Source: Gammaproteobacteria bacterium | Lineage (GTDB): Bacteria > Pseudomonadota > Gammaproteobacteria > HTCC5015 | Assembly: GCA_026004975.1 (NCBI GenBank) | Contig: BPKE01000001.1 | Location: 1-64,000 of the forward strand | DNA: 64,000 nucleotides | Direction: 5' to 3' | Shown: in pieces, positions 34,493 to 47,806 of the stretch | How the letters are laid out: every line of letters begins with the position of its first letter | Numbering within the stretch: the first letter of the stretch is position 1 | Notes under the pieces: generated by a model | Databases searched by the model: none | What the model was told of the DNA's origin: nothing | Seen by the model: the letters and a program-made list of their open reading frames with translations, nothing else | Made by a program: the position numbers and the translations under genes

Positions 34493-35560
34493 ATGAGTAC
34501 ACCCGTGGACATCGACGCCTTGCGCGGCCTGGTGCCGATCGGCGAGTTGTCGCCGGAAGCCCTGCGCGAGCTCGCCCGCAAGACCCCGGAGCAGCGCGTC
34601 GCCGCGGGGCGCTTCTTGTTCAAGCAGGGCGAACGCGACGGCCGCCACGTCTACCTGTTGGAAGGCGCGGTGGACCTGCTCGACGACAAGACCCCCGTCA
34701 AGCGCATCCGGGCCGGCGACCCGGAAGCCCGCCACCCCCTCGCCCACCAGCAGCCGCGGCGCTACGGGGCGCGGGCGGTGGAGGACTGCCGCTTCGTCGC
34801 CATCGATTCCGATCTGCTCGACATCATGATGACCTGGAACCAGACGGGCACCTACCAGGTCCGGGAGCTGGCCGCGGACGAACCGGCCGCCGCCGAGGAC
34901 TGGATGACCCGGCTGCTCAACACCCCGGCGTTCCACAAGGTGCCGCCGGCCAACCTGCAGACGCTCTTCCAGCGCATGGAAGCGGTGCCCTGCAAAGCCG
35001 GCGACGTCATCGTCCGCCAGGGCGAGGAAGGCGAGCACTTCTACATCATCCAGAGCGGCCGCGCGTTGGTGACCCGCGCCACGCCCGCCCACCCCAAGGG
35101 CATCAAGCTGGCCGAGCTCGGACCGGGCGACGGCTTCGGCGAGGAAGCCCTGATCGCCGGCGGGAAGCGCAACGCGACCATCACCATGCTCAGCCGCGGC
35201 ACGCTGATGCGGCTGTCCAAGGCCGACTTCCTGGAGTTGCTCAACAAACCCCTGGAGCGGGAGATGGACTACGCCGGCGCCGCCGCGGCGGTCGCCGCCG
35301 GCCGGGCCCGCTGGCTGGACGTGCGGCTGCCCGCCGAGTACAAGCACCGCCACATCGACGGCGCACTGAACGTGCCGCTGGTCACGCTGCGCCTGAAGCT
35401 CAAGACGCTCGACCCCAACACCCTCTACGTCGCCTACTGCGACACCGGCCGGCGCGCCTCGGTCGCCGCCTTCATCCTCGGCGAACACGGCTTCGAGGCC
35501 GCCGTGCTGCGCGGCGGCCTCGCCGCGGCGCCCGAGGCGGCGTTGCGCGCCGAGGCCTGA
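34493..35560 (+). CDS. Double cyclic-nucleotide-binding domain protein with C-terminal rhodanese
   Basis: 355 residues with three modules: CNB-like (about 10-125), CNB (about 145-255) and rhodanese (about 265-350). The first CNB is degenerate and has no phosphate-binding cassette. The second has the cassette FGEEALIAGGKRNATITML, with the conserved Glu and Arg, so cAMP or cGMP binding is plausible. The rhodanese loop YCDTGRRASVAAF has the catalytic Cys, so it may carry a persulfide. No helix-turn-helix and no signal peptide, so it is probably a cytosolic effector. It starts the signalling block, convergent with the HD-GYP gene. A class III adenylate cyclase 9 kb away is an obvious potential source of ligand; that link is inference. 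Confidence 0.88.
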   Translation: MSTPVDIDALRGLVPIGELSPEALRELARKTPEQRVAAGRFLFKQGERDGRHVYLLEGAVDLLDDKTPVKRIRAGDPEARHPLAHQQPRRYGARAVEDCRFVAIDSDLLDIMMTWNQTGTYQVRELAADEPAAAEDWMTRLLNTPAFHKVPPANLQTLFQRMEAVPCKAGDVIVRQGEEGEHFYIIQSGRALVTRATPAHPKGIKLAELGPGDGFGEEALIAGGKRNATITMLSRGTLMRLSKADFLELLNKPLEREMDYAGAAAAVAAGRARWLDVRLPAEYKHRHIDGALNVPLVTLRLKLKTLDPNTLYVAYCDTGRRASVAAFILGEHGFEAAVLRGGLAAAPEAALRAEA

Positions 35561-35567
35561 TCAGGCC
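35554..35567. terminator. Perfect 14-base palindrome over two convergent stops
   Basis: GGCCTGATCAGGCC, with the TGA of the cNMP/rhodanese gene and the stop of the HD-GYP gene (TCA on plus) forming its centre. The two stops are directly abutting. It could fold only as a tight or cruciform structure. No T-run is present. Confidence 0.35.
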
Positions 35568-37171
35568 GCCCGCGCGGCGGCGAGCACCGCCGCCTCGTCG
35601 ACCGCGTCGATCTGCTCGGGGGCGAGATGCGCCTCGGCGTAACGCCGCCAGACCCCCTCGCGCACGAACAACTCGAACAGGTCCGGGTCGAGATGGCCGT
35701 CGCGCACCATGCGCGCCATGATCGCCAGGCACTCGGACAAGGGTTTGCCGCGCTTGTACGGCCGATCGGCGGCGCTGAGCGCCTCGAACACGTCGGCGAT
35801 CGCCATCATCCGCGCCGGCAGCGACATCTGGTCGCCGCGCAGCCCCCGCGGATACCCCCTGCCGTCCATGCGCTCGTGGTGGCCGCCGGCGTATTCCGGC
35901 ACCCGCGCCAGATGCTTGGGGAAAGGCAGGGATTCGAGCATGCGGATGGTGGCGACCATGTGGTGCTCGATCATGCGCCGCTCCTCGGGCGTGAGGGTGC
36001 CGCGCGGCACGGTCAGGTTGTAGACCTCCTCGGGCGTGAGCAGCTCGAGCCATTCGCCGTCGGGGTTGCGCCAGCGGCGCTCGGCGATGCGGCGCACCCG
36101 CTCCTGGTCGGCGGCCGACATCCGCTCGGCGCCGATGTTCACCCGCCGCAGGAAATCGCGCTCGCCGTCCAACTCGGCCAGTGTCGCCCGCAAGCGCGCC
36201 TCGGCCGCCGCCCGCGCCGCGGCGTCGTCGCCCGCCGCCGCCAGCGCCTTCCAGTATTCGATCTCGGCGTCGCGCTTGAGCACCTCGAAGCGCGTGTCCA
36301 CCAGCTCGATGCGGTCGAACAGCGCTTCGAGCTTGGTGGCCTTGTCGATCACGTACTCGGGCGTGGTGATCTTGCCGCAATCGTGCAGCCAGGCCGCCGT
36401 CTCCAGCTCCACGCGGTCGGCCGGGCCGAGATGGAAGCCGGCGAAGGGCCCGTGCCCGGCGCGGTCGGCGGCCTCGGCCAGCATCATGGTCAGCACCGGG
36501 ATGCGCCGGCAATGGGCGCCCGTATGCGGCGACTTCTCGTCGATGGCCGTGGCGATCAGCCGGATGAAGGCGCGGAACAAGTTTTCCAGCGCCTCGATCA
36601 GCCGCCGGTTGGTGAGCGCCACCGCCGCCTGTGAGGCGAGCGACTCGGCCAGTTGCCGGTCGGTGTCACCGAAAGGCACCGGCGTGCCGTCCGGCCCGCG
36701 GCGGTTGATGAGCTGCAAAACGCCGATGATCTCTCCCTCGTGATTGCGTAGCGGCACCGTCAAGAGCGAGCGTGTCCGGTAACCGGTGCGCGCGTCGAAA
36801 CGCCGCGTGCCCTCGAAATCGTAGCCGGCGGCGGCATAGGCGTCGTCGATGGCGATCACTTCGCCCTGGTGCACGCAACACGCCACGACCGTGTCGCGGC
36901 GTGGCCGGCCGTCGCCGTCGTACAGCGGGATCGGCTCGAAACCGCGCACCGGCCCGGTGCGCCCGCCCATCCGCACGCCCAGCGACTCGGTGACCAACAG
37001 CTCGAACTCGAGCCGGTCGCCGGCCACGCTGTAGAGGGTTCCGCCGTCGGCCTCGGTCAGCGTGCGTGCCCCGTCGAGGATCATTTCGAGCAGGCGCGGC
37101 AGATCGCGCTCCGTGGACAGGGCGATGCCGATGCGATTGAGCCGTTCCAGTCGTTGGGCGAGCGCGTCCAC
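35561..37171 (-). CDS. GAF domain / HD-GYP phosphodiesterase
   Basis: 536 residues: an N-terminal GAF sensor (about 15-175, LNRIGIALSTERDLPRLLEM to ASQAAVALTNRRLIEALENL) joined by a helix to an HD-GYP domain. Catalytic residues: HTGAHCRRIPVLTMMLAEAA, the HD pair in AAWLHDCGKITTPEYVIDKA, HHMVATIRMLESLPFPKHL, and HHERMDGRGYPRGLRGDQ carrying the GYP motif. About 100 extra residues are inserted between the HD and GYP parts (EYWKALAAAGDDAAARAAAE and following). Expected activity is c-di-GMP (or cGAMP) hydrolysis in the cytosol. Intact frame, ATG at 37171 behind a candidate -10 box, convergent with the cNMP/rhodanese gene. Confidence 0.93.
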   Translation of the reverse strand: MDALAQRLERLNRIGIALSTERDLPRLLEMILDGARTLTEADGGTLYSVAGDRLEFELLVTESLGVRMGGRTGPVRGFEPIPLYDGDGRPRRDTVVACCVHQGEVIAIDDAYAAAGYDFEGTRRFDARTGYRTRSLLTVPLRNHEGEIIGVLQLINRRGPDGTPVPFGDTDRQLAESLASQAAVALTNRRLIEALENLFRAFIRLIATAIDEKSPHTGAHCRRIPVLTMMLAEAADRAGHGPFAGFHLGPADRVELETAAWLHDCGKITTPEYVIDKATKLEALFDRIELVDTRFEVLKRDAEIEYWKALAAAGDDAAARAAAEARLRATLAELDGERDFLRRVNIGAERMSAADQERVRRIAERRWRNPDGEWLELLTPEEVYNLTVPRGTLTPEERRMIEHHMVATIRMLESLPFPKHLARVPEYAGGHHERMDGRGYPRGLRGDQMSLPARMMAIADVFEALSAADRPYKRGKPLSECLAIMARMVRDGHLDPDLFELFVREGVWRRYAEAHLAPEQIDAVDEAAVLAAARAA

Positions 37172-37199
37172 GGCCGGGATCCTTGCAGTACCGGCCTCA

Positions 37200-37205
37200 A
37201 TTATA
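37200..37205 (-). promoter_or_regulatory. Candidate -10 box for the HD-GYP gene
   Basis: Perfect TATAAT on the minus strand, 28 bases before the ATG at 37171 and divergent from the kinase gene. No clear -35 element. Confidence 0.42.
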
Positions 37206-37293
37206 GCCTCCGGCGGCCGACAGCCCTGGGCGACACGTTGTGCGGGGCCGGTTTCGCGGTATCATCGCGGGGGGCACGCCGGGCGAGGAGACG

Positions 37294-39903
37294 ATGAAAA
37301 AAGCGTTCTGGAAGCGCGACGGGGTTCTCGGGCTGCTGACCGCCGCCGGCGTGCTGCTGGTGCACAGCTGCACCACCCTGGTCGACGGCCTGGAAAGGGA
37401 AGTCTACGACCTGGGCGTGCGCGGCGCCGAGCGCGCCCCCGGCGACGCCGTGGCGATCGTCGCCATCGACGACGCCAGCATCGACAACCTGGGCCGCTGG
37501 CCCTGGCCCCGCGATCTGCACGCCGGCATGATCCGTAAGCTGTCCGCCGCCGGCGCCAAGGTGATCGCCTACAGCCCCGTTTTCGCCGAGCCCCAGCGCG
37601 ATCCGGGACTGGCTTACATCGAGCGGCTCGACGACACCCTGCGCGCGGCCGGCCTGTCGGCCGCGGAGGGCGCGCCGCGCCTGGCCGAACACCGCGGGCT
37701 GATCGGGCAGGTCGGCGAAGACGCGCTGCGCGCCGCGCTCGAGGGTTCGCTGGACGGCATCGCCGCGCCGCTGGCCGAGGCGGACCGCCTCCTGGGCGAA
37801 GCCCGGACCCGCCTGGACGTGGACCGCCAGCTGGCCGAGGCCATGCGCGAGGCGGGCAACGTGGTCAGCCCGATGTGGTTCCTGTTCGGGCCCACCCTGG
37901 GGCGGCCCGACGCGCCCCTGCCCGAGGCCGTGCGGCGCATGGCGCTCACCCGCGTCGAAGACCCCATGGGAGTACGCCAGCTCGGCGAATCCTTCCTGCC
38001 TTTGAGTACGCAGCGGGTGATCGCGCCGATCCCGGCCGTGGCCGAGGCGGCGCGCGCCCTGGGCAACATCAACAACGCCCCGGACATCGACGGCGGCACC
38101 CGCGGCGAGGCGCTGGTGGTCGAACACTACGGCGAGCTGTACCCCTCCTACGCCCTCATGGTCGCCGCCGCCAGCCTCAACCTCGGCCCCGAGGACATCG
38201 TCGTGCGCCTGGGCCAGGGCGTGAGCCTGGGCGGCCTGGACATCCGCACCGACAGCCGGCTGCGCATGCTCACCTTCTTCTACCCGCCGGGCGCCCTCGC
38301 CGTGGACAGTTTCTTCGACGTCTGGGCGGACAAAGTGCGCGCCGAAAAATACCGCGGCAAGACCGTCATCGTCGGCGTCAGCGCCTCGGGGCTGGGCAAC
38401 CCCCAGTTGACGCCGATCTCGCCGGCCCTGTCCGAGCCCGAGACCCTGGCCCACACCGTCGCCAGCCTGCTCAACGGCGATTTCTTCACCCGGCCGGCCT
38501 GGGCGTCCTGGCTCACCGCCGGCGCCGTACTCGCCGTGGTGCTGTATCTGTGCGCCGTGCTGCCGGCGCTGGGCGCCGGCGCCGGGGCCGTGGCCAGCGC
38601 CCTGCTGCTCCTCGCCCTGCTCGCGGGCGAGTATCTGATGCTCGCCGTGCAGGCCACCTGGCTGCCGCTCACCCTGCCCGCCGTCCTGCTGGTCGTCGGC
38701 CACCTGGTCCTGAGCACCCGGCGCTTCCTGGCCACCGAGCGCGGCAAGCGCCTGGTGGACCTGGAATCGGCCGAAAGCAACAAGATGCTCGGCCTGGCGC
38801 TGCAGGGACAGGGCCAGCTCGACATGGCCTTCGAGAAATTCCGCAAATGCCCCCGCGACCCGGCGATGGCCGAGGTGCTCTACAACCTCGCGCTGGATTA
38901 CGAGCGCAAGCGCCAGTTCGCCAAGGCCGGCCACGTCTACCGCTACATCGCCGAGTTCGCACCCGACTTCCGTGACGTGCAGGCACGCATCGCCCGCGCC
39001 GAGAAAATGGAAAATACCGTGGTCCTGGGCGGCGGCGCGACCGCCTCGGGCACCCTGATCCTGGACGAGGCCGAAAAACCGATGCTGGGCCGCTACCAGG
39101 TGGAGCGCGAGCTCGGCAAGGGCGCCATGGGCGTGGTCTACCTCGGCCGCGACCCGAAAATCAACCGCATCGTCGCCATCAAGACCCTGGCCCTGTCGCA
39201 GGAATTCGACGAGGACGAGCTGGCCGAGGTCAAGGCGCGTTTCTTCCGCGAAGCGGAGACCGCCGGCCGGCTCAACCACCCGAACATCGTCACCATCTAC
39301 GACGCCGGCGAGGAGCACGACCTGGCCTACATCGCCATGGAATTCCTCGACGGGCACGACCTCGGGCGTTACACCAAGCGCGACCGCCTCCTGCCCCTGC
39401 CCGAGGTGATCCGGATCCTGCAGAAAGCCGCCGAGGCGCTGGACTACGCCCACCGCCAGAACGTCGTCCACCGCGACGTCAAGCCGGCCAACGTCATGTA
39501 CAACCCCGACACCGGCCTGGTCAAGCTCACCGATTTCGGCATCGCCCGCATCACCGACTCGAGCCGCACCAAGACCGGCATGGTGCTGGGCACGCCCTCC
39601 TACATGTCGCCCGAGCAACTGGCCGGCAAGAAGGTCGACGGCCGCTCGGACATTTTCTCGCTGGGGGTGATGTTCTTCCAGATGGTCACCGGCGATCTGC
39701 CCTTCAAGGCCGACTCGATGGCCGCCCTGCTCTACAAGATCGCCAACGAGCCCCACCCGAGCGTCCTCGATCTGAACCCCGAGCTGCCGCCGCTGACCGA
39801 GGTGATCATCGCCAAGGCGATGGAGAAGAACCCGGACGACCGCTACCAGACGGCCGCCGAGCTCGCCCGCGACCTCGGGCGCCTGCTGGAGGAAGGGCGC
39901 TAG
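37294..39903 (+). CDS. CHASE2-sensor Ser/Thr protein kinase
   Basis: 869 residues. A membrane helix (about 9-28) leads into a periplasmic CHASE2 domain (about 35-395, AVAIVAIDDASIDNLGRWPW). Three clustered membrane helices (about 400-475) and a TPR-like cytosolic stretch (about 490-565, FEKFRKCPRDPAMAEVLYNL) follow. A Hanks-type kinase domain (about 598-868) ends the protein: P-loop LGKGAMGVVYLGR, Lys in VAIKTL, catalytic HRDVKPANVMYN, metal-binding DFGIAR and GTPSYMSPEQLAG. ATG at 37294 is used rather than the ORF start at 37240. It is followed 1 base later by a PP2C phosphatase and then an FHA protein, so phosphorylation, dephosphorylation and phosphothreonine reading are in one unit. The signal sensed is unknown. 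Confidence 0.95.
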   Translation: MKKAFWKRDGVLGLLTAAGVLLVHSCTTLVDGLEREVYDLGVRGAERAPGDAVAIVAIDDASIDNLGRWPWPRDLHAGMIRKLSAAGAKVIAYSPVFAEPQRDPGLAYIERLDDTLRAAGLSAAEGAPRLAEHRGLIGQVGEDALRAALEGSLDGIAAPLAEADRLLGEARTRLDVDRQLAEAMREAGNVVSPMWFLFGPTLGRPDAPLPEAVRRMALTRVEDPMGVRQLGESFLPLSTQRVIAPIPAVAEAARALGNINNAPDIDGGTRGEALVVEHYGELYPSYALMVAAASLNLGPEDIVVRLGQGVSLGGLDIRTDSRLRMLTFFYPPGALAVDSFFDVWADKVRAEKYRGKTVIVGVSASGLGNPQLTPISPALSEPETLAHTVASLLNGDFFTRPAWASWLTAGAVLAVVLYLCAVLPALGAGAGAVASALLLLALLAGEYLMLAVQATWLPLTLPAVLLVVGHLVLSTRRFLATERGKRLVDLESAESNKMLGLALQGQGQLDMAFEKFRKCPRDPAMAEVLYNLALDYERKRQFAKAGHVYRYIAEFAPDFRDVQARIARAEKMENTVVLGGGATASGTLILDEAEKPMLGRYQVERELGKGAMGVVYLGRDPKINRIVAIKTLALSQEFDEDELAEVKARFFREAETAGRLNHPNIVTIYDAGEEHDLAYIAMEFLDGHDLGRYTKRDRLLPLPEVIRILQKAAEALDYAHRQNVVHRDVKPANVMYNPDTGLVKLTDFGIARITDSSRTKTGMVLGTPSYMSPEQLAGKKVDGRSDIFSLGVMFFQMVTGDLPFKADSMAALLYKIANEPHPSVLDLNPELPPLTEVIIAKAMEKNPDDRYQTAAELARDLGRLLEEGR

Positions 39904-39904
39904 G

Positions 39905-40726
39905 GTGCGCAGCGCCTCACGCATCGAAGGCCACGCCCTGACCCACCCCGGGGCCCGGCCCGGCCCCAACGAGGACGCCGTGTACCTGCACCGCGGCCGG
40001 GGCGTGGCGGTGGTCGCGGACGGCATGGGCGGTTATCGCGGCGGCGAGGTGGCGAGCGCCTTGGCCGTGACCACCGTCGCCGAGCACCTGCCGGCCGCCC
40101 TCGCCCGCCAGCGGGCCGCCCCCGATCCCGGCGACGGCTACACGCCGGAAAGCCGGGCCGTGCGCGAGGTCCTGGAGCTGGCCAACGAGGTGATCCTCAA
40201 CACCGCGCGCAGCCAGCCGCAATATGCGGGCATGGGCACGACGGTGGTGCTGGCCCTGTTCTACGGGCAGCGACTGACCATCGCCCACGTCGGCGACGCG
40301 CGCCTGTACCGCCTGCGCAACGACACGCTGGAGCTGCTCACGGTGGACCACACGCTGCTGCAGGAACTGATCGCCCGCGGCGTGTACACCGCCGAGGAAG
40401 CCCGCCGATCGCAGAACCGGAACCTGGTGACGCGCGCGCTGGGCATCGAGGAGCGGGTCGAGATCGACATCCAGGAAGATATTGCCCTTCCGGAGGACAT
40501 TTATTTACTATGCTCCGACGGGCTCAACGACATGGTCGAGGACCGCGATATCTATTCCACGCTGAAACGCTATAATGAACAGCTAGACCGGGCCGCGACG
40601 GAACTGGTCAGGCTGGCCAATGCGAACGGCGGACGGGACAACATCTCCGTCGTCCTGGTCCGCCCCCCCCGCGCCGCGGCCGGAGCCCGGCAGTGGGTGG
40701 ACAAGCTGGTAGACTGGTTTTTCTGA
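39905..40726 (+). CDS. PP2C-family protein Ser/Thr phosphatase
   Basis: 273 residues from the GTG at 39905, starting 1 base after the kinase stop. Metal-binding motifs of bacterial PPM phosphatases: GPNEDAVYLHRGRGVAVVAD, DGMGGYRGGEVAS, THV-like TIAHVGDARLYRLRNDTLEL, CSDGLNDMVEDRD and GGRDNISVVLV. It would reverse the action of the upstream kinase. The last third contains an AT-rich patch (about 40485-40590) with TTA and CTA leucine codons, which are rare in the rest of this GC-rich window. A TATAAT at 40571 lies in it. The phosphatase is probably cytosolic, as no signal or membrane segment is seen. Confidence 0.95.
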   Translation: MRSASRIEGHALTHPGARPGPNEDAVYLHRGRGVAVVADGMGGYRGGEVASALAVTTVAEHLPAALARQRAAPDPGDGYTPESRAVREVLELANEVILNTARSQPQYAGMGTTVVLALFYGQRLTIAHVGDARLYRLRNDTLELLTVDHTLLQELIARGVYTAEEARRSQNRNLVTRALGIEERVEIDIQEDIALPEDIYLLCSDGLNDMVEDRDIYSTLKRYNEQLDRAATELVRLANANGGRDNISVVLVRPPRAAAGARQWVDKLVDWFF

Positions 40727-40750
40727 ACACAACCGCTTGAAGGATTCGAT

Positions 40751-41506
40751 ATGCCGGCCAAACTGCAGTTGATGCTCAACGGGGACGTGTTGGCGGAGTA
40801 CGAGCTGAACAAGGAGAAGATCACCATCGGCCGCCGTCCCGACAACGATATCGTCGTCGACAACCTGGCGGTCAGCGGCCGGCACGCCCAGATCACCACG
40901 ATCCTCAACGACGCCTTCCTCGAGGATCTGAACAGCACCAACGGCACCTACGTCAACGGCACGCTGATCAAGAAGCACGCCCTCAAGCACGGGGACGTGA
41001 TCGGCATCGGCAAGCACCAGCTCAAGTACCTCAACGAGCCGGCCGGCGCCGAAGACGCCTTCGAGAAAACCATGGTCATCCGGCCGGACGCCGTCGGCAT
41101 GCCGGAGGCGACCGGCTCGGTGGAAATCGGCGCCTCGGTCAAGAAGATCGCCCAGGCCGAGCAACAGCAGGCCGCCCAGACGCCGGCGGCCGCGCCCGCC
41201 AACACCGGTGCGCAGCCCGCCGCGGCCGGCACGCGCCGCGCCAAGCTCCAGATCCTCAACGGCGCCAACGCCGGCAAGGAGCTCGAGCTGACCAAGGCGC
41301 TGACCACCATCGGCAAGCCCGGCACCCAGGTCGCGGCCATCACCCGCCGCCCGCAGGGTTATTTCATCATCCACGTCGAGGGCGGCGCCGGCGGCCAGAC
41401 CCCCATCATCAACGGCAAGCAGATCGGCACCCAGGCCACCGCCCTGAAAGACCACGACATCATCGAGGTGGCCGGCGTCAAGATGGAGTTCTTCCTCATC
41501 GACTGA
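40751..41506 (+). CDS. Double FHA-domain protein
   Basis: 251 residues: FHA1 (about 5-95) has the canonical phosphothreonine-binding residues, GRRPDNDIVVDNLAVSGRHA and LNSTNGTYVNG. An Ala/Gln/Pro linker (about 125-160) and a second FHA-like domain (about 163-250, GTRRAKLQILNGANAGKELE) follow. FHA2 lacks the usual SRxH (it has AITRRPQGYFIIHVEG) and may not bind pThr. Between them EKTMVIRPDA has a Thr in a context resembling phospho-acceptor sites of other FHA partners of Hanks kinases (inference). It lies 24 bases after the phosphatase, so it is probably the reader/substrate of the kinase module. Its 3' end overlaps rlmD by 11 bases, convergently. Confidence 0.93.
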   Translation: MPAKLQLMLNGDVLAEYELNKEKITIGRRPDNDIVVDNLAVSGRHAQITTILNDAFLEDLNSTNGTYVNGTLIKKHALKHGDVIGIGKHQLKYLNEPAGAEDAFEKTMVIRPDAVGMPEATGSVEIGASVKKIAQAEQQQAAQTPAAAPANTGAQPAAAGTRRAKLQILNGANAGKELELTKALTTIGKPGTQVAAITRRPQGYFIIHVEGGAGGQTPIINGKQIGTQATALKDHDIIEVAGVKMEFFLID

Positions 41507-42824
41507 ACAAGGCCATCGCCTCGCTGTGGGCGGTGTGCGGAAACATGTTCAACAAGCCCGCCGCCTCCAGCCGATAGCCGCCTTCCACCAGCTTGCGCGC
41601 GTCCCGGGCCAGCGTGGCCGGGTTGCAGGACACGTAGACGATGCGCTTTGCGCCCAGGCGCGGCAGCCAGCCGCAGACCGTCTCCGCGCCGCTGCGCGGC
41701 GGATCCAGCAGCACCTTGTCGATGCTGCGCCCCTCGCCCCACCAGAACGGCGTCGGCGGCGGCTCGAACAGGTCGGCGGTGTAAAACGCCGCTTCCAGAC
41801 CGTGCCGTGCGGCGTTGGCCCGCGCCCGCTCGACCATCCCCGCCTCGCCCTCGATGCCGATCACGCGCGCGCCCAGCCGCGCGGCGGGCAGGCTGAAATT
41901 GCCCAGGCCGCAGAACAGGTCCAGCACCGTCTCCCCCGGCGCCGGCTCGAGCAGATCCAAGGCCTGCGCCACCATGCGGCGATTCACCGAAGGGTTCACC
42001 TGCGTGAAATCCAGCGGCGAGAAGTGGATCGACACGTCCCAATTGGGCAGCCGGTAGGCCAGTTCCGGGGGCGACTCGGGCCACAGCGGCTGCAGGGAAT
42101 CGGCGCCGCCGGGTTGCAGGTAGACGACGAGCCCGTGGCGGCGCGCGAACTCGACCAGCCGCGCCCGATCGGGCATTGCGGGCGGCTCCAGCACTCGGAA
42201 CACCAGGGCGGTGGTCCCGTCGCCCTGGGCGACCTCGATCTGGGGCAGCCGGTCGCGGATCGACAGCCCGTCGATCAGCTCGGCCAGCGCGCCGACCAGG
42301 CCGCCCAGCGGCTCCACCAGCACCTCGCAGCGGCGCGTGTCCGTGATGTACGGTCGCCCGCGCTCACGGAAGCCGACCAGGGTCCGGCCCTTGCCGGGCA
42401 CGTAACGCACACCCAGGCGGGCCTTGGCCCGATAGGCCCAGATGTCGCCCTCGAGCGGCGCCAGCCAGCGCTCGGGCGCCACGCCGCCGATGCGCTGCAA
42501 GACCTCGGCGAGCTGGCGTTCCTTGGCGGCCCGCTGGGCCTCGGGCCGCAGATGCTGCAGGCAACAGCCGCCGCAGACGCCGAAGTGAGCGCAGCGCGGC
42601 TCGACCCGGTCCGGGCTGGCGCGCAGCACCGTCAGCAGATCGGCTTGGTCGAACTGGCGGCGGCGCCGGCGCAGGCGCGCCTGCACCCGCTCGCCGGGCA
42701 GGGCGCCGTCCACGAACACCACTTTGCCCTGGTGGCGCGCGACCCCCTGGCCGTCGTGGGTCAGGTCCTCGACGTCGAGCTCCAGGAGGTCGCCGCGTCG
42801 GGGCGCGCCGCTGCCGCCGCTCAC
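41496..42824 (-). CDS. rlmD: 23S rRNA (uracil-1939-C5) methyltransferase RlmD
   Basis: Methylates U1939 of 23S rRNA. 442 residues with an N-terminal TRAM domain (LLELDVEDLTHDGQGVARHQ). Four cluster cysteines follow, three in EPRCAHFGVCGGCCLQHLRP and one further on. The SAM motif is ETVLDLFCGLGNFSLPAARL, with DPPRSGAETVCGW and the catalytic nucleophile YVSCNPATLARDARKL. Start GTG 42824 overlaps the cysM stop as GTGA. The cysM-rlmD pair is conserved in Pseudomonas-type genomes, where relA usually follows. Here the FHA gene lies on the opposite strand instead. Confidence 0.97.
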   Translation of the reverse strand: MSGGSGAPRRGDLLELDVEDLTHDGQGVARHQGKVVFVDGALPGERVQARLRRRRRQFDQADLLTVLRASPDRVEPRCAHFGVCGGCCLQHLRPEAQRAAKERQLAEVLQRIGGVAPERWLAPLEGDIWAYRAKARLGVRYVPGKGRTLVGFRERGRPYITDTRRCEVLVEPLGGLVGALAELIDGLSIRDRLPQIEVAQGDGTTALVFRVLEPPAMPDRARLVEFARRHGLVVYLQPGGADSLQPLWPESPPELAYRLPNWDVSIHFSPLDFTQVNPSVNRRMVAQALDLLEPAPGETVLDLFCGLGNFSLPAARLGARVIGIEGEAGMVERARANAARHGLEAAFYTADLFEPPPTPFWWGEGRSIDKVLLDPPRSGAETVCGWLPRLGAKRIVYVSCNPATLARDARKLVEGGYRLEAAGLLNMFPHTAHSEAMALFSR

Positions 42825-43714
42825 GGCGGGAACAGGCCGGTCGAGAGATAGCGGTCGCCGCGGTCGCAGACGATGGTGACGATCACGGCGTGCTCGAGCT
42901 CGGCGGCCAGGCGCAAGGCCGCGGCCACCGCCCCGCCCGAGGACACCCCGCAGAACACGCCCTCCTCGGCGGCCAGGCGCCGCGCCATCGCCTCGGCTTC
43001 GGCCTGGCTGACGTCGATGATCCGGTCGACCCGGCTCGGATCGAAGATCCGCGGCACGTACGCCGGCGGCCAGCGCCGGATGCCGGGAATGGCCGAGCCT
43101 TCGGTGGGCTGGACGCCGACGACCTGCACGCGCGGATTCTTTTCCTTGAGGTAGCGCGACACCCCCATGATGGTGCCGGTCGTCCCCATCGCGCTGACGA
43201 AGTGCGTGACCCGGCCCTGCGTGTCGCGCCAGATTTCCGGCCCGGTGCCCTCGTAATGGGCGCGCGGGTTGTCCGGGTTGGCGAACTGATCCAGCACCTT
43301 GCCGCGCCCCTCGGCCTGCATCTGCTGGGCGAGGTCGCGGGCGCCTTCCATGCCGGCCTGCTTGTCGACCAGCACGATCTCGGCGCCGTAGGCCTTCATC
43401 ACCGCCCGCCGCTCGAGGCTGGCGTTCTCCGGCATGACCAGGGTGATCGGATAGCCCCGGATCGCCGCCGCCATCGCCAGGGCGATGCCGGTGTTGCCGG
43501 AGGTGGCCTCGATGAGCCGGTCACCGGGGCGGATCTCCCCGCGTTTTTCGGCGTTGCGGATCATCGAGATGGCCGGTCGATCCTTCACCGAGCCGGCCGG
43601 ATTGTTGCCCTCCAGCTTGAGCAGCACGACGTTGCCACGCTCGCGGTCGACCAGGCGCTGCAGGCGCACCAGCGGCGTGTTGCCGATGAAGTCCTCGATG
43701 GTCGGAAAACGCAT
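42821..43714 (-). CDS. cysM: Cysteine synthase B CysM
   Basis: PLP-dependent O-acetylserine sulfhydrylase able to use thiosulfate. 297 residues from the ATG at 43714 (MRFPTIEDFIGNTPLVRLQR). The PLP lysine is in NPAGSVKDRPAISMI. The substrate loop SGNTGIALAM and the PLP phosphate cradle GTTGTIMGVSRY are present. CysM-type ending ERD-like VCDRGDRYLSTGLFPP. The long ORF to 44101 is a fusion with sequence antisense and out of frame to pdxJ. It has its own candidate -10 box in the pdxJ stop and is coupled to rlmD. Confidence 0.95.
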   Translation of the reverse strand: MRFPTIEDFIGNTPLVRLQRLVDRERGNVVLLKLEGNNPAGSVKDRPAISMIRNAEKRGEIRPGDRLIEATSGNTGIALAMAAAIRGYPITLVMPENASLERRAVMKAYGAEIVLVDKQAGMEGARDLAQQMQAEGRGKVLDQFANPDNPRAHYEGTGPEIWRDTQGRVTHFVSAMGTTGTIMGVSRYLKEKNPRVQVVGVQPTEGSAIPGIRRWPPAYVPRIFDPSRVDRIIDVSQAEAEAMARRLAAEEGVFCGVSSGGAVAAALRLAAELEHAVIVTIVCDRGDRYLSTGLFPP

Positions 43715-43739
43715 GGCGGTCTCGGCTCGCGGAGCGGCG

Positions 43740-43745
43740 ATTATA
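43740..43745 (-). promoter_or_regulatory. Candidate -10 box for cysM, built into the pdxJ stop codon
   Basis: TATAAT on the minus strand, 25 bases before the cysM ATG. The TAA stop of pdxJ is bases 3-5 of the hexamer, the same arrangement as at rlmN/pilF. -35 not evident. Confidence 0.42.
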
Positions 43746-44487
43746 CCCGCTCGCCGGCCCGGCCGGCGGCCATCGCCGCCTTCATTTCGCGCACCGCCGC
43801 ACCGATGCCCACGTACAAGGCCCGGCTGATCAGGGCGTGGCCGATGTTCAACTCGGCGATCTGCGGCAGCGCCGCGATCGGCCCGACATTGGCCGTGGTC
43901 AGGCCGTGCCCGGCGTTGACCCGCAGGCCGAGCGCGGCCGCGTGGGCGGCCGCGGTGCGCAGGCGTTCCAGCTCCCGGCGAGCGGCCTCGCCTTGGACCT
44001 CGGCCCAAGCGCCCGTGTGCAGCTCGACGACGGGGGCGCCCGCGGCGGCGGCGGCGTCGACCTGCCGGGGCTCCGGGTCGATGAACAGCGACACCCGGCA
44101 ACCGGCCGCCGCCAGGCGCGCCACCGCCTCGGCGATGCGGGACGTCTGGCCGGCGACGTCCAGGCCGCCCTCGGTGGTCAGCTCGGCGCGCTTTTCCGGA
44201 ACCAGGCAGACTTCCGCCGGCCGCCAGCGCTCGGCCAGGCGCAACATCTCCTCGGTGACGGCCATCTCCAGATTCAGATGCGTGCGCAACTCGGCGAGCA
44301 GGCGCTCGATGTCGTGATCCTGGATGTGGCGGCGGTCTTCGCGCAGATGGGCCGTGATGTAGTCGGCGCCGGCGTCCTCGGCCAGGCGGGCGATTTCGAC
44401 CGGATCCGGGTAGGGCGTGCGCCGGGCCTGGCGCAAGGTGGCGGCGTGATCCACGTTCACGCCGAGCAAGGGCGGCGATGCAGTCAT
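43741..44487 (-). CDS. pdxJ: Pyridoxine 5'-phosphate synthase PdxJ
   Basis: Last step of DXP-dependent vitamin B6 synthesis, condensing 3-amino-1-hydroxyacetone phosphate and DXP. 248 residues from the ATG at 44487 ([20 protein letters not shown]). Typical motifs: [60 protein letters not shown], and [20 protein letters not shown] with the catalytic His. Intact frame. It precedes cysM, both PLP-linked functions, and is divergent from the adenylate cyclase. The extended ORF start at 44586 overlaps the cyclase start and is rejected. Confidence 0.97.
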
Positions 44488-44493
44488 GTTGCG

Positions 44494-44499
44494 ATTATA
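44494..44499 (-). promoter_or_regulatory. TATAAT directly upstream of pdxJ
   Basis: Perfect TATAAT on the minus strand only 6 bases from the pdxJ ATG. If it works as a -10 box the transcript would be leaderless or nearly so. Otherwise the real promoter is further up. Confidence 0.35.
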
Positions 44500-44576
44500 T
44501 CGCGGGCCGGCGGCGATTCTGTTATGTTGCCTCGAATGCGGCCGATGACGGTTCCGAGGCCGCCGAGGAGCACCGC

Positions 44577-46797
44577 GTGACCCCACGCCGACTGCTGCGT
44601 CTGACTGTCTGTCTGCTGCTCGCCGCGGCCTTCCTCGCGCACGCGCTGGGCTGGTGGCGCATCGGCCTGATCGACACCCTCGAACGCTTCGCCTACGACA
44701 GCCGCTTGCGCCTCACCGCGCCCGGCGGGGTGGACGAGCGCATCGTCATCGTCGATTTCGACGAACGCTCGATCGAGCGCTTCGGCTGGCCCTGGCCGCG
44801 CCGCGAGCTGGCCGCGATCGTCGACCGCCTGTTCGATCACTACGGCGTCGAGCTGGCGGCCTTCGACATGGTGTTCGCCGAGCCGGACGCGCGCAGCCCC
44901 CTGCCCGTCCTGGACGCGCTGGGCGCCGGTCCGCTGGCCGACGACACCGCATTCCACGCCGTGATCGAGCAGCGGCGTGGGGAGTGGGAATACGACCGCC
45001 GCTTCGCCGACAGCCTGCGCGGCCGCCCCGTGCTGCTCGGCTTCGTCTTCCACCACGACGATGGCCGCCGCAAGGGCCTGCTGCCCGAACCGCTCGGCGA
45101 GGGCCTGATCGATCCCGCCTGGAAGCGCCGCCTGCCCATCCCCGAGGCCCGCGGCCACCTGGGCAACCTGCCCGAACTGCAGGCCGCGGCGGCCGGCGGC
45201 GGCTTTTTCGACAACCCGCTGGTCGACGACGACGGCGTGTTCCGCCGCGTGCCGCTCCTGCAGCTCTACCAAGACCGCCTCTACCCCTCGCTGGCGCTGG
45301 CCGTCGCCCGCGCCGCCCTGGATACGCCGCCGCTGGAGATCGTGGTCGTCTCCTCCGGAACCGGCCGCGGCGACTACAACGCGATCGAGGCGATCCGGCT
45401 GGGCGAGCGCAGGGTGCCGGTCGATGCACGCACGGCGGCCCTCGTGCCCTACCGCGGGCCGCGCGGCAGTTTTCCCTACGTGTCCGCGGTGGACGTGCTC
45501 GACGGGCGCGCCGCGCGCGAGACGCTGGCCGGCAAGATCGTGTTGCTGGGCACCACGGCGGCCGGCTTGATGGATCTGCGCGCCACCCCGGTGGCGGCGG
45601 TCTACCCCGGGGTGGAGGTGCACGCCAACCTGGTCGCCGGCATCCTCGACGGCAGCCTGCGCCAGGCGCCGTCCTGGATCCAGGGCCTGGAGGTGGTGCT
45701 GCTGCTGGCCGTGGCCCTGGCGCTGGGCATCGCCCCCCTGTTCCTCAGCGCGCTGGGCAGCACCGCGCTCGCCGGCGGTCTGGCCGCCGCCCTGCTCGGC
45801 CTCGACGCCTGGCTGTGGTCGCACGGGCTGGTCGCGCCGCTGGCCGCCCCCCTGCTCCTGCTCGTCCTGCTCTACCTGTGGCAGAGCGCCTACGGGCACT
45901 TCATCGAGTCGCGCAACAAGCGCGCCCTGGCCCGGGTGTTCGGCCAGTACATCCCCCCGGAACTGGTCGACGAACTCGACCGGCGTGGCGGCCGGGTCGA
46001 ACTGGAAGGCGAAAGCCGGGAATTGACCGTGCTGTTCTCGGACGTACGCGGTTTCACCCGCATCGCCGAGCGCCTCGACCCCAAGACCCTCAGCCGCCTG
46101 ATGAACATCTTCCTCAGCGCCCTGACCGAGGCCATCCACCGCCACCGCGGCACCATCGACAAGTACATGGGCGACGCGGTCATGGCGTTCTGGGGCGCGC
46201 CGCTGGAAGACCCGCTGCACGCCCGTCACGCCCTCGAGGGCGCCTTCGAAATGCTGCGCGTGGTGCGCGCTCTGGAGGACGACTTCCGCGCGCGCGGCTG
46301 GCCCGTGCTGCACGTCGGCATCGGCCTGAACAGCGGGCCGATGCGCGTCGGCAACATGGGCTCGCGCTTCCGGATGGCCTACACCGTGCTCGGCGACGCC
46401 GTCAACCTGGGTGCCCGCCTGGAAGCGCTCACGCGCCGCTACGGCGTGGACCTGATCGTCGGCGAGTCGGTCAAGGCGCAAGCACCCGATTACGTCTACC
46501 TCGAGCTCGACCGCGTGCGCGTCAAGGGCAAGGCCGAGCCGGTCACCATCTACGCGCCCCTCGGCCCCCGCGAAACCGTGGACAAGGCGCAGCGGCTGGC
46601 GGCGCGCCGCTTCGGCGAAGCGCTGCTACTGTACCGACGCGGCGACTTCGACGCCGCCGAGCGGGAACTCTTCGCCCTGGCGAGCGCCGAGCCCGACCGC
46701 CTGTTGTACCGCCTCTATCTCGAGCGCATCCTGCACTTCCGCCAACACCCGCCGCCGCCCGGACTGGGACGGCGTGTTCGACTTCACCGAGAAATGA
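44577..46797 (+). CDS. CHASE2-sensor class III adenylate cyclase (apparent frameshift at the end)
   Basis: About 740 residues from the GTG at 44577. Membrane helix (about 5-25), periplasmic CHASE2 (about 35-350, [20 protein letters not shown]), three membrane helices (about 360-440) and a class III cyclase domain (about 478-660). Metal-binding Asps are in [16 protein letters not shown] and [13 protein letters not shown]. Base-selecting Lys (DKYMGD) and Asp ([14 protein letters not shown]) point to ATP, and the same stretch has the transition-state Asn and Arg. A TPR-like tail follows. The ORF continues to 46862, but removing one base near 46760 gives [11 protein letters not shown] and a TGA at 46797, a better end. 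Its sensor resembles that of the kinase at 37294. Confidence 0.93.
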
Positions 46798-46806
46798 CCC
46801 GCCCGC

Positions 46807-47806
46807 TCAGCCGGCGCCGTCGGCCCGGCGCGCGATCGCCGGCAGGAAAGGGCTCGAGATAGTGCTGGCGCTCGAGATACGGATTCGGGGAAGCGCAACA
46901 GGATGCCGCGGATCACCGCCAACACCGCCGCCAGCGGCTGCTCGCCGCGGCGGTAGGGCCTCGATCAAAGCGCCCAGATAGGCTTTTTCCGCCGGCGGCA
47001 GCACGCGCTTGAAATACCCCTGCAGGTGCATCAGCACGTTCGCATGCCGGCCGCGCGAGGCCGTGGTGGCCAGCGCAGCCATGAACGCCTGCCGGTAGGC
47101 GCGCCAGAACGCCGCCCCCGGCCGCGGCTCGATGCGCGCCACCAGGCGGCCCAATGCCTGCGCCCTGGACGGTGCCGCCGCCATGAGCGTGTACTTGTAG
47201 CGGCTGTGGAACGCCACGTAATCGGCGGCGCGGGCATCCTCGGGAAGCGAGCGATAAAAATCGCGCAAGGCGAACAGGCGCAGCACGAAGTTCTCGCGCA
47301 GGGCCGGATCCTCGAGCCGGCCGTTTTCCTCGACCGGCAACCAAGGCATCGCCGCCCGCAGGCGCCGGGTCCACAGGCCGGTGCCGCGGCGCTCGCCGAC
47401 CGGCGCGCCGGGCTTGTATACCGGCACCCCGCGCCAGACCGCAGGACGGGCTCTTGGCACACACCACGTAACCGCACAGATCCGCCAATTCCGGCACCTT
47501 GCGGTCGGCGAATCGGTGCATCGCCTCGGTGACGTCCAGGCCGGCGTCGGTCACACCCTGCAGGCGCAGCCCGGACGCGGTCTCGACCAGGCGGATCGGC
47601 GGGCGCGGCACGCCCATGCCGATCGCCAGCTCCGGGCAGACCGGCACGAAGCGCACCCATGGCGCCAGCACGTCGGTCAGAAAGCGCAGGCGCTTGTGGC
47701 CGCCGTCGTAGCGGACGGGGTCGCCGAGCAAACATTGGCTGACGCCGAGGGGGATGCGTTCCTCCTCGTTCGAGGCGTCGTACAGCGGCGGGCGGCTCGC
47801 GCTCAT
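46807..47806 (-). CDS. TudS-like (DUF523) protein fused to DUF1722 (YbgA-like) (apparent frameshifts)
   Basis: The N-terminal half from the ATG at 47806 is a DUF523/TudS domain. It keeps three cysteine motifs (GVSQCLLGDPVRYDGGHKR, FVPVCPELAIGMGVPRPPIR, AKSPSCGL) that hold a [4Fe-4S] cluster in thiouracil desulfurases. The second half, in another frame (ORF 46807..47460), is DUF1722: ENFVLRLFALRDFYRSLPED, YVAFHSRYKYTLMAAAPSRA and NVLMHLQGYFKRVLPPAEK. Frame changes lie near 47430-47460 and again near 46940 and 46880, so the exact C-terminus is uncertain. Fused DUF523-DUF1722 proteins are widespread, and the physiological role is not established. It converges with the cyclase, with a 9-base gap. 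Confidence 0.85.

Follow-up and report, generated by a model that had tools for sequence, protein, structure and literature searches.

In this study, we analyzed a stretch of 64,000 nucleotides (the window) at the start of contig BPKE01000001.1 from a gammaproteobacterium of the HTCC5015 lineage, and concluded that it probably carries a conserved membrane signalling module. In this module, a unit of three genes (the trio), encoding a Hanks-type Ser/Thr kinase with a CHASE2 sensor domain, a PP2C-type phosphatase and a two-domain FHA protein, is linked to a CHASE2 class III adenylate cyclase, and it is joined in some families by a GAF/HD-GYP protein, a predicted cyclic di-GMP (c-di-GMP) phosphodiesterase, and by a rhodanese protein with two cyclic-nucleotide-binding (CNB) domains. 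We consider it very likely that the kinase trio and the cyclase act in one pathway.

The evidence comes from gene neighbourhoods in 369 genomes of the same class, where genes within 15 kb of each other were counted as close, the best few candidates were scored per genome, and families were counted by the genome codes used. The kinase was found in 91 genomes, the cyclase in 89, the HD-GYP protein in 57 and the CNB-rhodanese protein in at least 155 (115 in the positions used). Kinase and cyclase genes were close in 32 of the 48 genomes with both, against about 0.6 expected by random placement, and in 18 of the 30 families with both, while paralogous kinases, used as an internal control, were never near the cyclase (0/13 genomes). 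The HD-GYP gene was close to the kinase gene in 15/34 genomes and to the cyclase gene in 17/42 genomes with both; among the CNB matches listed, the CNB-rhodanese gene was close to the HD-GYP gene in 15/38, to the cyclase gene in 13/51 and to the kinase gene in 11/55. Every pair among these four was far above random placement, and the GAF/HD-GYP and CNB-rhodanese genes accompanied the kinase and cyclase in fewer families. The conserved co-occurrence for which an earlier note on this DNA had proposed a neighbourhood search was borne out, with the full block present in several families.

The survival of closeness through rearrangement is a stronger argument than the counts. The cyclase gene lies downstream of the kinase gene in the same direction in 7 families, downstream in the opposite direction in 10 and upstream in the opposite direction in one. 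The surroundings of the pair also differ, including the dnaQ/rnhA/mltD side, mutS-fdxA with a Mce-type ABC operon, recA-recX-sucCD, and tmk-mltG-pabC (several neighbour-gene names at the relatives' loci are presumed, in part from protein starts). In a tree of 55 kinase sequences, for which the loci were partly picked for closeness so that linked cases are over-sampled, the label "cyclase near" needed 5 changes against 18.4 when shuffled; that is, an old association has been kept for long. These results bear on bystander synteny, in which unrelated signalling genes would travel together through a conserved housekeeping region without joint function. In the window's family, as in a number of others, the dnaQ/rnhA/mltD or cysM/pdxJ surroundings of the block are indeed shared, and three housekeeping genes lie between the FHA and cyclase genes in the window. 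However, the kinase–cyclase linkage persists in unrelated contexts and three orientations, a betaproteobacterial metagenome-assembled genome (MAG) carries the block genes all on one strand, and closeness to the cyclase does not extend to the paralogous kinases. Bystander synteny, already weakened for the kinase and cyclase, is in our view unlikely, though it may still apply to the CNB-rhodanese and HD-GYP genes.

The cyclase family has two kinds of neighbour. Among 80 genomes with this family, a FecR gene lay within 12 kb of 32 cyclase genes (among the FecR matches listed), the trio was near 23, both were near none and neither was near 29 (Fisher p 1.8e-6, uncorrected for relatedness). When FecR proteins served as queries in a second search, the positive controls were detected and none of 33 trio-type loci gave a match. 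The window cyclase has no FecR gene within 12 kb and does not belong to a FecR cluster. In a quick tree of 76 cyclase sequences with many weak branches, trio and FecR states were interleaved, with 6 switches, and a supported clade of 53 held 28 trio, 13 FecR and 12 neither. In genome G059, which has two cyclases, one is next to the trio and the other next to FecR. HD-GYP and CNB-rhodanese genes occur with both cyclase kinds (L154 and L158), mostly the trio kind. Most simply, the trio would take the place of the FecR system as the cyclase's partner. More tentatively, the trio and the FecR/TPR-barrel system may be alternative inputs of one CHASE2 cyclase family, and in the window type Ser/Thr phosphorylation might directly gate cyclic AMP (cAMP) synthesis, coupling a Hanks kinase, cAMP and c-di-GMP turnover, with the CNB-rhodanese protein as a non-CRP cAMP effector.

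The same data bear on a further alternative, in which two separate systems stand side by side, one a PknB-like trio serving envelope growth or division and the other a cAMP unit used in life on surfaces. Many genomes, and other phyla (Elusimicrobiota and Deltaproteobacteria), have the trio and lack the cyclase, and the cyclase occurs with FecR/TPR in place of the trio. However, the genes have stayed close despite rearrangements and the cyclase has either the trio or FecR beside it, which suggests that the trio stands in for an input partner of the cyclase, and we assign two independent systems a low probability.

The genes of the block and the motifs discussed below are as follows:

34493 to 35560, plus strand: CNB-CNB-rhodanese protein of 355 aa, with two cNMP-binding stretches and a rhodanese domain in Pfam.
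35561 to 37171, minus strand: predicted GAF/HD-GYP c-di-GMP phosphodiesterase of 536 aa (Pfam GAF and HD-GYP; HD_5, 150 bits).
37172 to 37293: intergenic stretch of the divergent HD-GYP/kinase pair.
37294 to 39903, plus strand: CHASE2 Hanks-type Ser/Thr kinase (Pfam CHASE2, 148 bits; Ser/Thr kinase, 188 bits).
39010 to 39063, plus strand: kinase linker with two Thr motifs, ENTVVLGG (T574) and GTLIL (T586).
39905 to 40726, plus strand: PP2C-type Ser/Thr phosphatase of the Stp1/IreP family (Pfam PP2C; NCBIfam).
40751 to 41506, plus strand: FHA protein (one FHA in Pfam), consisting of FHA1, a linker and a pseudo-FHA2.
41060 to 41080, plus strand: FEKTMVI motif of the FHA linker, with candidate phosphosite T107.
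41496 to 44487, minus strand: housekeeping genes rlmD (41496-42824), cysM (42821-43714) and pdxJ (about 43741-44487).
44577 to 46862, plus strand: CHASE2 class III adenylate cyclase of about 761 aa (Pfam CHASE2, 195 bits, and class III cyclase).

The start codons are ATG at 37294 (kinase), GTG at 39905 (PP2C), ATG at 40751 (FHA) and GTG at 44577 (cyclase), and kinase residues are numbered from 37297. The gaps of 1 bp between kinase and PP2C and 24 bp between PP2C and FHA given in the earlier note are exact, and all six proteins have the domains that it assigned (by Pfam, and for the second FHA domain by a structure model), with catalytic motifs intact. The HD-GYP gene is convergent with the CNB-rhodanese gene and divergent from the kinase gene, and this divergent pair is retained in families f1, f49, f93, f154 and f155. 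The genes rlmD, cysM and pdxJ separate the FHA gene from the cyclase gene on the opposite strand and are not part of the signalling module. A sigma-70 promoter scan of the window found nothing, the terminators were unremarkable, and an Rfam scan gave two tRNAs only.

The kinase has one N-terminal transmembrane-like stretch, the CHASE2 domain, a transmembrane-like block (about 401-474), a linker and the kinase domain (597-863), with the full set of kinase motifs and the activation loop TKTG...GTPSYMSPEQ. Among solved structures in the PDB, the kinase domain is nearest PknB. Membership in the PASTA kinase family (PrkC/Stk1/PknB) was rejected: Pfam found no PASTA repeats in the kinase, and it scored 324 bits against the cut-off of 450 for the equivalog NF033483. 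The phosphatase passed the Stp1/IreP equivalog NF033484 (231.5 bits against a cut-off of 230). In an alignment of 22 kinases, the linker residue T574 (ExTVxLGG) does not vary and T586 (GTLxL) is at least 90% conserved; both are candidate sites for autophosphorylation and FHA docking. A second CHASE2 kinase in the same genome (G000:C1:683.5-686.0 kb, L112) lies without PP2C or FHA neighbours beside gltA-like (citrate synthase) and ttcA-like genes, and the same gene order was found in a sister genus (G001, L113).

FHA1 (residues 1-95) of the FHA protein has the canonical phosphothreonine-binding residues, and its best structural matches are GarA and OdhI. The following linker (98-159) is predicted to be disordered and is hypervariable apart from the FEKTMVI motif, whose T107 does not vary among 9 aligned FHA proteins of several phyla; a motif of this type was found in 31/37 FHA orthologues, and T107 is a candidate phosphosite. 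FHA2 (residues about 162-251) was missed by Pfam; an AlphaFold model of residues 160-251 (pLDDT 94) matches FHA structures (GarA, E 4e-5, TM 0.78; also OdhI), and it has none of the canonical G-R, S-x-x-H and N-G-T residues. The description "double FHA" in the earlier note is therefore true of the fold and not of two phosphothreonine readers. A canonical FHA domain with a conserved Thr beside it, predicted to be phosphorylated, is the GarA/OdhI-type arrangement, while the protein stayed below the cut-offs of the OdhI model NF041660 (61.9 bits against 200) and the TagH/Fha model TIGR03354 (48.9 bits against 120). FHA domains usually prefer phosphothreonine with Leu, Ile, Val or Asp at +3. Because the kinase linker and the FHA protein have a conserved TxxL/I motif in common and FHA1 resembles GarA and OdhI, the trio probably works like PknB-PstP-GarA with a CHASE2 input.

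Of the two CNB domains in the CNB-rhodanese protein, CNB1 is degenerate, and the phosphate-cassette Glu and Arg are present in CNB2 alone. The CNB2 phosphate-binding cassette FGEEALIAGGKRNAT (residues 215-229) is complete and aligns to the cassettes of PKG and PKA-R, its key letters are at least 90% conserved in 31 orthologues, and the rhodanese loop YCDTGRR (315-321) keeps the active-site Cys. Judged from its sequence, the protein is a probable cyclic-nucleotide reader, for cAMP or cGMP. Elsewhere, giant proteins of 1437-1756 aa begin with CNB-CNB-rhodanese and have a formylglycine-generating enzyme-like (FGE-sulfatase) domain at the other end (L101:6951-11345, L117:4302-9569 and L126:3940-8250). 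In the HD-GYP protein, HDCGK at 263 and HHERMDGRGYP at 431 are intact and conserved, giving both the HD and GYP motifs, so that phosphodiesterase activity is predicted. The cyclase has the catalytic residues of class III, namely the two metal-binding Asp in FSDVRGFT and KYMGD, the adenine-binding Lys in GTIDK and the transition-state Asn/Arg motif; its motifs at 488, 526 and 603 are conserved in 41 orthologues, and it aligns to solved bacterial adenylate cyclases in the PDB.

Considering the above results, we propose a plausible model for signalling by the module. A periplasmic or membrane cue would act on the CHASE2 domain of the kinase, which may autophosphorylate on the activation loop and on the TVxL/TLxL threonines of the linker. 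FHA1 would dock on pT-x-x-L of the kinase linker, and phosphorylated T107 could become a competing internal ligand, so that the FHA protein might switch from an open state to one bound to itself and back, as GarA and OdhI do; PP2C would reset the phosphorylation of both kinase and FHA protein. We give such an FHA switch through the Thr motifs about even odds. The cyclase, with its own CHASE2 domain, would make cAMP, perhaps controlled by the trio or co-sensing with it; CNB2 of the CNB-rhodanese protein might read the cAMP, and the HD-GYP protein would lower c-di-GMP. Local cAMP reading by the CNB-rhodanese protein is possible, though somewhat less probable than the switch.

A number of points weigh against this interpretation. 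The trio and the cyclase are separated in 12 of 30 families, the CNB-rhodanese and HD-GYP genes are often elsewhere in the genome, and part of their linkage may come from shared ancestry of the dnaQ/rnhA/mltD region. The genome counts are not independent, and the kinase tree also allows one old joining followed by later separations. No CRP-like sites were found in the intergenic stretches of the window, including 37172-37293. The Thr motif was present in 31/41 trio kinases and in 5/8 kinases without trio neighbours (two motifs in 26/41 and 2/8, respectively); being only slightly commoner in trio kinases, it is alone no proof of FHA docking. A similar motif also occurs in the cyclase and HD-GYP families, in the cyclase inside the catalytic core, where it is probably structural, so that its presence alone proves little. 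Linkage is not wiring, and for the wiring and output of the module we rely on inference. The earlier note had read the six proteins as an integrated circuit and named independent occurrence of its genes in related genomes as the finding that would speak against it. Such independence was seen for the CNB-rhodanese gene, often at another locus or fused, and for the trio and cyclase in those 12 families, and not in the other 18. The conserved gene association thus stands, with the kinase-PP2C-FHA unit and the cyclase as its core and the CNB-rhodanese and HD-GYP genes as frequent companions only.

At 50-65% protein identity, the block is present in three other genera of the window's family (G001, L094; G002, L095; and G003, on two contig ends, L104 and L105). 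The whole block was found in that family and in f93, f154 and f155 (G000-G002, G156, G157, G215, G266, G267 and G362), and a near-whole block in the f49 genome G189 (L138, with the CNB gene cut by the contig end) and in the betaproteobacterial MAG (L172, JACPRN010000257.1). The order in the latter, on one strand, is kinase, PP2C, FHA, cyclase, cAMP phosphodiesterase-like, CNB-rhodanese, GAF-MshEN-T2SSE ATPase and HD-GYP. In a Burkholderiales MAG (L173), genes for kinase, PP2C, FHA, cyclase and phosphodiesterase stand in a row, and after them come a protein of 804 aa, partly similar to a GAF-MshEN-T2SSE-type ATPase, and a pilin-like gene. A gene resembling a class-II cAMP phosphodiesterase comes after the cyclase gene in L172 and L173, and in L140 and L169 it is a neighbour of the cyclase gene. 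Trio or near-trio rows were also found in Elusimicrobiota and Deltaproteobacteria MAGs, and a kinase-PP2C pair in a Nitrospiraceae MAG. A reduced block in the 1.7 Mb genome G009 (L130, G009:C1:94000-110000) reads pdxJ-cysM-FHA-HD-GYP-CNB-rhodanese, without kinase, PP2C and cyclase, and unless it reflects decay it ties the FHA protein to the HD-GYP and CNB-rhodanese proteins beyond the kinase.

The earlier note stated that no secretion-system, pilus or two-component genes accompany the block. For pilus and two-component genes, this holds for the window and does not extend to its relatives: a BarA/GacS-like hybrid histidine kinase, absent from the window, lies inside the block in sister genera, f93 and f155 (L094:5705-8359 and L133:11302-14058), and the pilus-type ATPase and pilin genes adjoin it in Burkholderiales. 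In two sister genera, a TonB-receptor-like gene and a 300-aa gene without a Pfam match precede the BarA-like kinase between cysM and pdxJ (L095:10292-13484 and L105). The cyclase, the CNB-rhodanese gene or the whole trio was also found at a tmk-holB-pilZ-tatD (or tmk-mltG-pabC) locus in other lineages (L098, L108, L110, L148, L152 and L158), a location with a possible link to type IV pili. In L099 and L122, the cyclase gene adjoins genes that we take, from protein starts only, to be type II secretion gspD/gspE/gspF-like. Nothing in the window marks the output of the module. Because pilus genes adjoin the module in Burkholderiales and the cyclase and CNB-rhodanese genes occur at the tmk-holB-pilZ-tatD locus elsewhere, attachment, pili or biofilm is weakly suggested as the likeliest type of output, and surface attachment itself is a speculative assignment. 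MshEN, the c-di-GMP-binding ATPase, was uninformative as a marker of pilus linkage because it was present in all 34 genomes searched.

A phage-defence locus, with a Pycsar-like cyclase, a CNB reader and a PD-T4-6-like kinase, was considered since the PADLOC models PD-T4-6 and PycC matched the kinase domain (up to 315 bits) and the cyclase domain (104 bits), respectively, and PycTIR/TIR effector models weakly matched CNB2. However, these matches are confined to common catalytic or CNB domains, and the reader is fused to rhodanese. The block also stays at housekeeping loci in different families, without the patchiness expected of a defence gene. Pycsar defence, which pairs a cyclase with a cyclic-nucleotide-bound TIR or transmembrane effector, was rejected, as neither effector is in or adjoins the block; a defence role is highly improbable. 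Even less probable is a threonine phosphorylation pathway of the type VI secretion system (T6SS; PpkA-PppA-Fha) moved away from its secretion genes, although the same three enzyme types stand in a row and the FHA protein weakly matches TagH: VipB/TssC was found in only 4 of 32 genomes with the kinase–cyclase pair and never on the block's contig (the 28 without it include the window's own genome, 64% complete), the kinase sensor is CHASE2 and the FHA protein is nearest GarA/OdhI, so that a T6SS setting was rejected, in agreement with the earlier note.

In Gram-negative bacteria, work on Hanks kinases is usually separate from work on class III cyclases. Because kinase, phosphatase, FHA reader and cyclase stay together in at least 18 families, control of cAMP by Ser/Thr phosphorylation is now directly testable in bacteria. 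From the alternation of trio and FecR, a clear prediction follows for the role of the trio with respect to the cyclase, and the CNB-rhodanese protein is a candidate cAMP effector distinct from transcription factors and channels.

The open-access literature gave no description of the combination of CHASE2 kinase, PP2C, FHA and cyclase, a weak negative since subscription papers lie largely outside it. The trio resembles the actinobacterial PknB-PstP-GarA/FhaA system in its Hanks kinase nearest PknB, its Stp1-family PP2C, its GarA/OdhI-like FHA1 and the conserved Thr beside the FHA domain. It differs in having a CHASE2 rather than a PASTA sensor, a second, degenerate FHA domain and a linked adenylate cyclase; moreover, T107 lies after the FHA domain, unlike the phosphosite of GarA and OdhI, which precedes it. 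With the T6SS pathway PpkA-PppA-Fha it shares the kinase, PP2C phosphatase and FHA protein, without T6SS genes at the block.

On the side of the cyclase, a cluster of CHASE2 adenylate cyclase, FecR, TPR/SlipAM-barrel protein and phosphodiesterase has been published in Campylobacterota (PMC9239204). The window type has in common with it the CHASE2 class III cyclase and sometimes the class-II cAMP phosphodiesterase-like gene, and the FecR and TPR/SlipAM-barrel version also occurs in gammaproteobacterial relatives (L154, L158 and L121). In contrast, the cyclase of the window and of 18 families has the kinase-PP2C-FHA trio instead of FecR. Sinorhizobium meliloti has the CHASE2 cyclases CyaD1, CyaD2 and CyaK with NsrA and Clr, the cyclases being likewise envelope sensors that raise cAMP; there the reader is the CRP-type regulator Clr, the input is an outer-membrane barrel and no kinase trio is described (PMC13001267). 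The BiofilmReg operon of Burkholderia contaminans, a CHASE2 histidine kinase and response regulator beside a LysM/FecR protein (PMC5192318), is similar in this placing of a CHASE2 sensor next to LysM/FecR and has no cyclase or Ser/Thr kinase, and CHASE2 kinases have also been listed in cyanobacteria (PMC2176072). Each device is known; what appears to be new is that a Ser/Thr kinase-phosphatase-FHA unit is conserved alongside a cAMP cyclase, and that this unit and FecR occur there as alternatives.

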